A stretch of 46,634 nucleotides of DNA from Candidatus Nitrosocosmicus sp. (GTDB lineage: Archaea; Thermoproteota; Nitrososphaeria; Nitrososphaerales; Nitrososphaeraceae), in contig JAICXY010000014.1 of assembly GCA_025934495.1 (NCBI GenBank), positions 1-46,634 on the forward strand, given 5' to 3'. Each line of letters begins with the position of its first letter. The first letter of the stretch is position 1. Below, piece after piece: positions 4,049-6,980 of the stretch. Both the position numbers and the translations under genes were made by a program. The notes below the pieces were generated by a model, which saw only the letters and a list, made by a program, of their open reading frames with translations, had not been told where the DNA came from and searched no databases.

Positions 4049-5623
4049 ATGATATCAGGCAAAAGAATTGTTTTAACTGCTGATCGTAGTTTAATGACAA
4101 ATTATCGAGGTAATTTCCTTTATGGCTTTATTGCATGTGGTCCATACGAGCTTGTTCCTGAATTTGTTTTTGATAAACTTTTTTGTCCCAGTGTAGAGAC
4201 AGTAAAAAGTACTGGTGAAATAAAAGTTGCTCAGTGTGGACTACGAAGAATTGAAAGCGCTCTGCTTCAAGAATATTCTCCAAATGATATTTTTTTAGCT
4301 CATCCTGAAATGCTGGATAAATGTATAGGGCCTGAAACAAAAGTAGTGGGTATTAATGTAATGGACCCATTGGGTATGGCTCCTGTAACTACTACGATGT
4401 CACCTGAAAAGTTATCTTATGTGGCAATGAAATTTAAAAAAATGTGTGCTTCTATTATACAGCTAAAGAAAAAATATAATTTTAAGGTTGTAGTTGGAGG
4501 TAATGGTTCATGGGAACTAGCAAAACCTGAAAGAATGAAAATTCATGGAATAGATACAGTTGTTATTGGGGAAGCTGATGAATTAGCGCTTGATCTTTTC
4601 CATGATTTGGAAGCAGGTGATGCACCAGAACTATTGCATACTTTTGTTAGAAATATTGAAAATATTCCTATGGTCAGGGGACCAACAATAAATTCTTTGA
4701 TTGAAGCTATGCGAGGTTGTGGTAGAGGATGTGATTTTTGTGATGTAAACAAACGTTCTAAAAAAGATATTCCTCTGAGCCGACTTCAAGATGAAGCTAA
4801 AATAAATCTTAAATACGGATTTGATTCCATATGGCTTCAGTCAGATGAAATGTTACTATATGGCTGTGACAATAAAGATTTTATTCCAAATCAAGATGCA
4901 ATATTGGATGTTTGGAAAGGATTAAAATCAATTGGTGCAAATTTTATAGGGACAACTCATATGACATTATCTGCAGTTGCATCTTCACCTGATTTAATCA
5001 AAAAAATTTCCCTTGTTAATGATATGGAAAATAATGGTAGATGGCTTGCAACGAATTTGGGTGTGGAAACTGTTGCCCCAAGAATGGTAAAAAAACACCT
5101 AGGTGTAAAAACTAAACCCTTTCAACCGGAAGAGTGGGGCTCGGTTGTAAGGGAGGGTTGTAAAATATTAAATAGCAATCATTGGTTTCCTGCATTGACA
5201 TTGATTATTGGTTGGCCTGATGAAACTCCTGATGAAACACAATATACTATTGATTTGATACAAGATTTTAGACAAATGAATATGAGGGGTTTAGTGGCTC
5301 CGTTGTTATATCAGGATTTCTCTGAAAAAAATTCAATGCATTTTGGAAATCTGAATGAATCGCAATTTGCACTTTTTTGGACATGTTGGCAACATAATCT
5401 TAGAGTGATCGATCAAATTATTCCAATAATTATTAGAAATAAATCATATGGCCCGGCAATGAAAGTATTTATGGCTATGTTGATAAAAGCAGGCACTTGG
5501 GCTATTATGAAATATTTACGAGGATTATCTAAAGGTCTTTTTGATGGTAAACCTGCTGAAGATATTGTTGCAAAATTTGTAAAGCCCCGCTCTGTTACCG
5601 CACCAATGCCGCCAAAACTTTAA
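4049..5623 (+). CDS. B12-binding-type radical SAM protein, candidate GDGT ring synthase (Grs)
   Basis: This 524-residue protein has an N-terminal Rossmann-like region (residues 95-185, with VVGINVMDPLG and VVVGGNGSWELA) of the B12-binding type. A radical SAM core follows, with the [4Fe-4S] motif CGRGCDFC (C224, C228, C231; CX3CX2C). Later motifs include NLGVETVAPRMV and LTLIIGWPDETPDE, typical of the archaeal COG1032 group. Known members with this layout include the Sulfolobus ring synthases GrsA/GrsB, which close cyclopentane rings in tetraether lipids, and thaumarchaea make such rings in crenarchaeol. That role is inference; other B12 radical SAM enzymes, including methyltransferases, share the layout. 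A ferredoxin-reductase-like gene lies convergently downstream. Confidence 0.85.
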   Translation: MISGKRIVLTADRSLMTNYRGNFLYGFIACGPYELVPEFVFDKLFCPSVETVKSTGEIKVAQCGLRRIESALLQEYSPNDIFLAHPEMLDKCIGPETKVVGINVMDPLGMAPVTTTMSPEKLSYVAMKFKKMCASIIQLKKKYNFKVVVGGNGSWELAKPERMKIHGIDTVVIGEADELALDLFHDLEAGDAPELLHTFVRNIENIPMVRGPTINSLIEAMRGCGRGCDFCDVNKRSKKDIPLSRLQDEAKINLKYGFDSIWLQSDEMLLYGCDNKDFIPNQDAILDVWKGLKSIGANFIGTTHMTLSAVASSPDLIKKISLVNDMENNGRWLATNLGVETVAPRMVKKHLGVKTKPFQPEEWGSVVREGCKILNSNHWFPALTLIIGWPDETPDETQYTIDLIQDFRQMNMRGLVAPLLYQDFSEKNSMHFGNLNESQFALFWTCWQHNLRVIDQIIPIIIRNKSYGPAMKVFMAMLIKAGTWAIMKYLRGLSKGLFDGKPAEDIVAKFVKPRSVTAPMPPKL

Positions 5624-5662
5624 TTTTTTTCAGATTGCCAAAACTTTTTTAATTTTTTTTTT
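5624..5662. terminator. T-tracts after the radical SAM gene
   Basis: Runs of seven, six and nine-plus T follow the stop within 40 bases, a good archaeal U-tract terminator for the plus-strand gene. The convergent small gene on the minus strand ends about 80 bases further on. Confidence 0.5.
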
Positions 5663-5739
5663 AATAGGCCTATAAAACAAATAAAAAAATAAATGGTATA
5701 GTTATTTAATTAAAAACATAGTTAATTAAAAAAATACCT

Positions 5740-6078
5740 TTATTGTTTTTGTTTAGCTAATTCCTCTAAAGCTGCATCAGCGAGTGTATCTCTAACTGGA
5801 TTTATTGCTATGAAATAATTTTTATCTGCTCTTTCTACTGCTGTTACTAATTTGTGTTTTTTTGTAGACAGATCAAATTCATACATTCCACGATCAAGCT
5901 TGCCTTTTGTATAGATCATCAATAGAACCTCTCCAGAAATAGGTGTAATAGGTACCATGGAGAAAATATGCTCTTTATATGAACTTATAGGGAGCACTTG
6001 TTTCATATATGGTGCAACAGAAACCAAATAAATCAAAACGTCTTCTATAGTTTCAAATTCTTCATACTCAAATTTCAT
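5740..6078 (-). CDS. Conserved-looking hypothetical protein, 112 aa
   Basis: This is a soluble 112-residue protein with mixed alpha/beta character and balanced charge, an acidic N-terminus (KFEYEEFETIED) and a Lys/Gln-rich end. I do not recognise a family or catalytic motif. It lies 59 bases downstream of the flavoprotein gene on the same strand, so the two may form a transcription unit and act together. The composition, ATG start and absence of low complexity make a real gene likely. Confidence 0.65.
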   Translation of the reverse strand: MKFEYEEFETIEDVLIYLVSVAPYMKQVLPISSYKEHIFSMVPITPISGEVLLMIYTKGKLDRGMYEFDLSTKKHKLVTAVERADKNYFIAINPVRDTLADAALEELAKQKQ

Positions 6079-6137
6079 TTAACTTATAAACTATAATTAG
6101 GATAAATAAACTTTATAATAAAATAGATGGGATATTG

Positions 6138-6980
6138 TTATCCATAAGATTCAAACTTTACATCAAAAGTTCCATCTTTCCTTTTTTTTCTCTCTGTAAC
6201 AAATCCTTTGGGTACAAGTGAATCTAATACTCCATCCACCGTCCCTTGCCATCCGCATACATAAAACGATGTATTCTCGGGAGTTATGGATTCTCCAACT
6301 AATTCCTCTAAAGGTGATTTGTCTTTACCTGCCTTTGGTCTTAGAAATGATTCTACTCTTCCTTTATGGCCACTCCATGATCTGTTAAACCATTCTTGAG
6401 GTCTACTTATGCTTGCTCTATAACGGAAATTCCAGTTATCTTTTCCCTTATCAAGGCTTTCGTTTTCTAGATTTGTTAATAGATCTCTATAGCTTAATTC
6501 ATCGACATAACTAGCTCCATGTAAAACTACGATTTCTCTTTTACTTCCAATTGCTTTTAGATGCAAAGTATATGATATAAATGGGGCTAGACCTGTACCT
6601 CCACCTATTAATACCATTCTTCTATTATCGGGAGAACCTGTAGCCATTTTTTCATTTATTGTAAAAATTCCAGTGGGTTTAACCCAAAGTACCTCATCTC
6701 CTTCTCTTTTGTCAAATACCTGTGTGGTAAGTCTTCCGGGAACTGGTTTTTTGACCCATCTTAATATTAATTCAAAATGCTTTTTTTGTTGAGGCGGTGA
6801 TGCAATAGAATATGCTCTTCTAATAATTTTTTTTTCACTTGGAACATTTACGCCTAGTGTTACAAATTGCCCTGGTTTAAAATCAGGAACCTGGCCTTCA
6901 TTTGGTTTTATACGGAAAATTGCAAGATCCTCTTTTAAAACACTAATATATGAAATTGTTGCCTTATTATCAACTACCAT
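6138..6980 (-). CDS. Ferredoxin/flavodoxin-NADP+ reductase-like FAD oxidoreductase
   Basis: This 280-residue flavoprotein belongs to the ferredoxin-NADP reductase superfamily. The FAD-binding barrel carries FKPGQFVTLGV and the RRAYSIASPP motif (about residues 54-63), whose Arg and Ser contact FAD. The pyridine-nucleotide domain has GGGTGLAPFISY (about 126-137) and a late FYVCGWQGTVDGV. It would pass electrons between NAD(P)H and an iron-sulfur or flavin partner in the cytoplasm. Some proteins of this fold are oxygenase or sulfide-dehydrogenase subunits, but no iron-sulfur site is present here. It is convergent with the B12 radical SAM gene, which needs a one-electron donor; a link is possible but unproved. 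Confidence 0.85.
   Translation of the reverse strand: MVVDNKATISYISVLKEDLAIFRIKPNEGQVPDFKPGQFVTLGVNVPSEKKIIRRAYSIASPPQQKKHFELILRWVKKPVPGRLTTQVFDKREGDEVLWVKPTGIFTINEKMATGSPDNRRMVLIGGGTGLAPFISYTLHLKAIGSKREIVVLHGASYVDELSYRDLLTNLENESLDKGKDNWNFRYRASISRPQEWFNRSWSGHKGRVESFLRPKAGKDKSPLEELVGESITPENTSFYVCGWQGTVDGVLDSLVPKGFVTERKKRKDGTFDVKFESYG

Follow-up and report, generated by a model that had tools for sequence, protein, structure and literature searches.

A conserved Grs-superfamily radical SAM protein of ammonia-oxidising archaea and its paralog as candidates for the cyclohexane ring synthase of crenarchaeol

Crenarchaeol is a lipid used in past-climate reconstruction. Four of its rings are placed at C-7 by a review, which puts a single cyclohexane ring at C-11 and predicts that Thaumarchaeota use a GrsA homolog together with another, unidentified Grs protein for the latter (PMC9385802). 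The described ring synthases of glycerol dialkyl glycerol tetraethers (GDGTs), GrsA and GrsB, differ in ring position, not in ring type, according to the same review, and are thought to hold the radical S-adenosylmethionine (SAM) cluster only (PMC11186832). Here we describe a radical SAM protein, X, from a 46,634-nucleotide stretch of Candidatus Nitrosocosmicus sp. DNA (the window; GenBank contig JAICXY010000014.1, which is contig C143 of the 3.56-Mb, 200-contig draft genome G000). We found that X is a real, conserved member of the Grs (GDGT ring-synthase) superfamily specific to ammonia-oxidising archaea (AOA) and that, alongside its paralog Y, it is a good candidate for the crenarchaeol enzyme still being sought.

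The lipids reported from cultured Thaumarchaeota include GDGT-0 to -4, crenarchaeol and a crenarchaeol isomer, so that AOA have rings of two kinds, cyclopentane rings and the cyclohexane ring found in crenarchaeol; the accessible text of the same paper reports crenarchaeol from Thaumarchaeota only, and several ring isomers as made by AOA (PMC6805073). The carbons named for the cyclohexane ring run from A11' to A15', of which A15' is an all-carbon quaternary centre that bears the methyl A20'; the crenarchaeol synthesis paper considers it likely that the ring arises when the bicyclic chain cyclizes once more (PMC8361987). According to a 2026 paper, where this ring comes from and how it forms is unknown (PMC12909067). 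Phrase searches for a crenarchaeol synthase by name, or for crenarchaeol biosynthesis, returned no paper from 2019 on, and our other literature searches showed no identification among the matches listed. AOA genomes are reported to contain two ubiquitous Grs clusters, GRS-A and GRS-X, to neither of which the accessible text ties a ring type (PMC11442133, mLife 2024), and the Grs homologs of marine Thaumarchaeota were found to be separate from thermophile GrsA and GrsB (PMC8473941), a grouping that agrees with the trees presented here. The general idea of a second thaumarchaeal Grs for the cyclohexane ring and the two AOA clusters are, therefore, already in print; what we add is a pairing of X and Y across individual genomes, a clade structure that takes in non-AOA, and a choice between X and Y at the level of the gene, which as far as our searches go is not in print.

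Homology and distribution of X and Y

In genome G220 a profile search picked out two strong matches, one at 199 kb and the other at 1.354 Mb, which by locus-tag order fit Saci_0240 (GrsB) and Saci_1585 (GrsA) of Sulfolobus acidocaldarius DSM 639 and which we take to be these two; a name-based scan for Sulfolobus Grs gave six loci, S. acidocaldarius not among them. In blastp, X matched the protein taken as GrsB with 230 bits (30% over 473 amino acids) and the protein taken as GrsA with 183 bits (28% over 468 amino acids), against 81 bits for the next-best radical SAM protein detected in S. acidocaldarius. This homology places X, on sequence evidence, in the Grs superfamily.

The sole Pfam domain of X is Radical_SAM (PF04055; 33.2 bits, residues 219-404). 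Over 69 family rows, only three cysteines, C224, C228 and C231, are at least 95% conserved, and five scattered extra cysteines (C30, C46, C133, C273 and C446) are common to X rows only. An AlphaFold2 model of X from a six-row alignment (mean predicted local distance difference test score, pLDDT, 67; predicted template modelling score 0.65) ends in two C-terminal helices. The highest hydrophobic moment of the protein falls on residues 446-463, its most amphipathic stretch, which fits a predicted contact with the membrane; the grand average of hydropathy of the two helices is 0.58 and 0.78. The open reading frame (ORF), its cysteine motif and the convergent flavoprotein and small genes described below had all been pointed out in a first-pass annotation of the window and were found as described. 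The features of X are as follows.

4049..5623, + strand: X, radical SAM protein of the Grs superfamily, 524 amino acids (ORF, PF04055, GrsA/GrsB homology, trees)
4247..4249, + strand: R67; lysine in 89% of rows outside X+X' (the X-side clade; family alignment)
4718..4741, + strand: CX3CX2C motif (C224-C228-C231), radical SAM [4Fe-4S] ligands (sequence; at least 95% conserved in the 69 rows)
4847..4849, + strand: E267, in the loop after barrel strand 2; aspartate in 86% of rows outside X+X' (alignment and strand positions of the model)
5300..5320, + strand: P418-F424 (PLLYQDF), the loop after barrel strand 6, with D423 in place of the proline of 88% of rows outside X+X' (alignment)
5357..5434, + strand: predicted C-terminal helix 1, residues 437-462 (AlphaFold2 model, block pLDDT ~67-77)
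5450..5527, + strand: predicted C-terminal helix 2, residues 468-493, of low confidence (AlphaFold2 model, block pLDDT ~44-50)

To follow X across its class we used 150 Nitrososphaeria genomes, including its own, with archaeal AmoA (PF12942) as the amoA marker. Orthologs of X (74-94% identity) were present in 110 of the 150, which excludes a chance ORF, and AmoA in 106, with both in 105. X thus occurs in 105 of the 106 amoA-bearing genomes as opposed to 5 of the 44 without amoA, which is near to a one-to-one occurrence with amoA. All five genomes with X and without amoA are drafts of AOA families (93-96% completeness), X's own among them: G000 has no archaeal AmoA match, yet all five sampled genomes of the same genus have one, and the missing AmoA is probably an assembly gap. 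The single genome with amoA and without X, G126, is a 96%-complete draft, which also lacks the small neighbouring gene S. Family f4 belongs to the same order as AOA, and neither of its two genomes (G096 and G146, of which one is complete on a single contig) gave a match to amoA, X, Y, S or the FNR-like neighbour of X.

Y is the second Grs-family protein of X's own genome (G000:C65, L044); it has 574 amino acids, is 32% identical to X, and its AOA counterparts are about 580 amino acids long. Orthologs of Y (at least 72% identity) were found in 107 of the 150 genomes. X and Y occur together in 102 of the 106 amoA-bearing genomes, Y being missing in G105, G112 and G129, and X in G126. Y-type copies are also found in many non-AOA, and X-type copies in AOA and one other genome. 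Thermophile-like AOA (G067, G109 and G112) carry additional Grs genes, some on the X-side, some on the Y-side and some elsewhere in the superfamily; in G124, a reduced AOA genome of 0.8 Mb, the Grs genes are X and Y only. A third Grs gene common to AOA, suggested by three matches per genome, was rejected, as two of the three matches were pieces of Y. Tandem pairs of different Grs-family proteins were seen in the AOA G067 and G112 and the non-AOA G020 (L048 4436-7744, L052 4050-7304 and L054 1963-5349).

Two trees were built. For the 72-row tree we dropped 24 X loci that were nearly identical to others, together with L066 and an incomplete Y (L064); for the 87-row tree we then removed another five rows that were long or outlying (L088, L090, L089, L071 and L077). 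In the latter, X and five X-like rows make up an X-side clade of 22 rows (support 100/99), which is AOA only except for G020, and the Y-side clade of 27 rows (100/100) extends beyond AOA to families f6, f8 and f10 and, in other classes, to f20 and f42. These clades are sisters (49 rows, 100/99), and the GrsA clade (12 rows, 100/100) and the GrsB clade (7 rows, 100/100) both stand apart from them. The 72-row tree, with outlying rows in, recovered the X-side clade (100/100) and did not support the joint clade (57/5 at the inner fork, 81/67 overall), so that the sister relation of X and Y is less firm and partly sampling-dependent. Y and the f8 copies group together with support of 80/92 and 89/55 in the two trees, a grouping flagged in both as a possible long-branch join. 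Approximately unbiased (AU) tests rejected the groupings of X with GrsB (p 3.4e-5), of the X-side with GrsA (p 0.0022) and of Y with GrsA (p 8.2e-6). X is, therefore, an ortholog of neither GrsA nor GrsB. As a pair, X and Y are almost certainly the GRS-A and GRS-X clusters as described in the accessible text of PMC11442133.

Roles of X and Y in ring formation

From these comparisons we favour a division of labour in which X would be the cyclohexane ring synthase of crenarchaeol and Y the cyclopentane enzyme, a proposal whose chances we judge to be about even. X is preferred for the cyclohexane ring because the Y-side occurs in non-AOA and the X-side almost only in AOA. When X was put forward as a candidate ring synthase in the first-pass annotation, Y was not part of the picture: membership of the Grs superfamily supports the proposal, and the restriction to amoA-bearing lineages fits a role in crenarchaeol.

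The X-side departs from most of the family at positions 67, 267 and 423, and carries the loop motif PLLYxD[FY] or PMFYTDY (in the rows shown) where FVPxG is common; FVPxG is kept in Y and is also present in GrsA. Residues 267 and 423 lie in loops after barrel strands of the model, and these loops would face the active site. We looked for a residue that would by itself settle the choice between X and Y and found none. Both clades changed, and residues alone do not decide between the two proteins.

A number of observations weigh against giving the cyclohexane ring to X. In blastp, X scores higher with GrsB, which makes cyclopentane rings at C-3, than with GrsA. The near-invariant sites 151, 169, 314 and 390 are changed in Y, and the count of clade-specific changes at conserved sites is four for Y against four for X alone, or four against six when the clades are size-matched. 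Y is as AOA-wide as X, and G112 has amoA, X and a Y-side copy with no Y ortholog. G020 belongs to a family without amoA matches and holds an X-side copy; with it and the five rows of X-like paralogs, the X-side proteins are not purely AOA orthologs. Finally, the argument that Y is the older enzyme is indirect, because the lipids of non-AOA lineages are mostly unknown, and the one cultured Conexivisphaera is stated to have uncharacterised lipids (PMC12909067).

Some of these points would suit swapped roles, with X closing the C-7 cyclopentane rings as the working GrsA of AOA and Y closing the cyclohexane ring. X and Y being equally AOA-wide, and Y being longer with changes of its own, would be in line with this, as would the fact that X is needed wherever Y is, which is expected of the enzyme that makes the substrate. 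We nevertheless consider the swap unlikely, though a serious contender, given that Y keeps the FVPxG loop of GrsA and has relatives in many non-AOA, whereas crenarchaeol is, in the accessible text of PMC6805073, a lipid of Thaumarchaeota only and the X-side is almost confined to AOA. The specificity of the two proteins may also be lower than either assignment supposes: X and Y could share the cyclopentane work, by chain halves or by stereoisomers, with one of them or a third enzyme making the cyclohexane ring. The ring isomers reported from AOA (PMC6805073), the surplus Grs copies of thermophilic AOA and the difference between GrsA and GrsB in position instead of type (PMC9385802) are all compatible with such sharing; G124, with 0.8 Mb and X and Y only, indicates that two genes suffice unless an enzyme from outside the family takes part, and we regard sharing as improbable.

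More distant still is the possibility that X is some other radical SAM enzyme, for instance a B12-dependent methyltransferase or another modifier of lipids. GrsA matches occur in bacteria without Tes (PMC11868695), and GrsA and GrsB are the only superfamily members that we know as tested. The best NCBIfam match of X is, moreover, to a B12/radical SAM family (TIGR04013), and the best of the fold matches of its model (MgmA, MiaB, AprD4, CysS and TokK) is a B12 methylase, MgmA. The TIGR04013 score, however, is 49 bits against a cut-off of 251; the same model is the top match of S. acidocaldarius GrsA and GrsB, likewise below cut-off (69 and 98 bits), and every NCBIfam match of X is far below its cut-off, including that to the curated methyltransferase model TIGR04014 (20.9 of 360 bits). 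Pfam gave no match to the B12-binding domain (PF02310) for X (E <= 0.1) or for the two proteins that we equate with GrsA and GrsB (E <= 1), and X stood among Grs homologs in both trees. We consider a different enzyme very improbable, and X as a B12 methyltransferase is rejected by the curated cut-offs together with the tree placement. Of the B12-binding plus CX3CX2C layout of GrsA and GrsB that had been read into X, the layout is indeed common to the three proteins, and the B12 domain is not recognised by Pfam; a grouping of X with unrelated B12 radical SAM methyltransferases, raised at the same time, was not seen. The model fold resembles both the B12 enzyme MgmA and MiaB, which is not known to bind B12. 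A Rossmann-type domain in X is possible from the MgmA match, and binding of cobalamin by X is unproven.

If X is indeed the crenarchaeol cyclohexane synthase, it would form a bond between an unactivated methyl carbon and a tertiary one, creating an all-carbon quaternary centre by radical chemistry, a step that we put forward tentatively, at slightly less than even confidence. X would use its C-terminal helices to bind the GDGT at the surface of the membrane and would cleave SAM reductively at a single [4Fe-4S] cluster, possibly with electrons from the FNR-like protein through a ferredoxin. The resulting 5'-deoxyadenosyl radicals would abstract hydrogens from the saturated biphytane chain, on which Y would already have closed the cyclopentane rings at C-7. 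C-19 would then bond to C-15 to give the cyclohexane ring; this closing bond is one that we infer ourselves. Were this the case, the X-side copy of G020 would predict a cyclohexane-bearing tetraether outside the ammonia oxidisers. The question of the crenarchaeol enzyme is narrowed to two named genes with opposite predictions, and the gene that is confirmed could serve as a marker by which uncultured crenarchaeol producers are recognised.

Neighbouring genes and electron supply

Two genes on the opposite strand converge on X.

5740..6078, - strand: S, 112 amino acids, no cysteine, convergent to X (ORF; no Pfam or NCBIfam match)
6138..6980, - strand: FNR-like flavoprotein (FNR), 280 amino acids, on the strand of S and 59 bp upstream of it (PF00970, FAD_binding_6; PF00175, NAD_binding_1)

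The nearest solved relative of FNR is the ferredoxin reductase 2qdx. S has no known relatives, and a single-sequence structure model of it was unusable (mean pLDDT 39.5). S was found in 109 of the 150 genomes, and in 101 of these 109 it is convergent to X and within 1.2 kb of it (median gap 18 bp), the exceptions being five f3 genomes, G112, G103 and G107. FNR was also found in 109 of the 150. It adjoins S and X in all 16 f1 genomes, but in the seven f2 genomes that we compared by eye (G003, G022, G040, G046, G058, G089 and G124) it is either distant from X or placed on a different contig. In four f3 genomes (G067, G077, G080 and G099) its neighbour, in divergent orientation and at a distance of about 0.4 kb, is an X-like paralog.

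The two arrangements of FNR beside Grs genes hint at a link between them. FNR may, alternatively, be simply a general reductase; X's own genome has a second FNR (G000:C84:15539-16375), 76% identical to the one beside X. S has no cysteine, so no Fe-S cluster is possible on it, and S as a redox partner or ferredoxin-type carrier was rejected. The case for electron supply to X by FNR and S, as originally suggested, is weak: S lacks cysteine, and FNR is linked to X in the f1 family only, though it also neighbours an X-like paralog in the four f3 genomes.

In f2 genomes (L093 7398-11231), X lies beside AIR carboxylase-like, nickel-insertion and QueC-like genes and a malate/lactate dehydrogenase gene, a set that resembles the larB-larC-larE nickel-pincer set. 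Near the contig end of the window, at 248-640, a 130-amino-acid ORF looks by eye like a transposase fragment.

Comparison with Tes, Y, GrsA and GrsB

Like X, Tes is a radical SAM enzyme, and it acts on archaeal tetraether lipids. The two are separate families: the genome's own Tes, L002, passes NF045702 with 699 bits (cut-off 450) and matches PDB 7tol, whereas X has no NF045702 match at E <= 0.1. X as Tes was rejected on this ground and by its tree placement. With Tes in the genome of X, the GDGT substrate should, therefore, be present too. Further radical SAM proteins of this genome are L041 1779-2774, L043 1601-2569 and L008 1336-2484, whose matches to the PTO1314 family (TIGR03961) are well below cut-off.

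Y and X are alike in belonging to sister clades and in occurring in one organism, and differ in that the Y-side is spread over non-AOA families and the X-side, apart from G020, is not. With GrsA and GrsB, X shares homology over the full length, the CX3CX2C motif and TIGR04013 as the top match; over the 69 family rows no further cysteine motif is conserved. Two elongated hydrophobic C-terminal helices were described for a GrsA model (PMC11186832); for X two C-terminal helices are predicted, the second with low confidence. In contrast to both proteins, X lies outside the GrsA and GrsB clades and carries the X-side changes at 67, 267 and 423.

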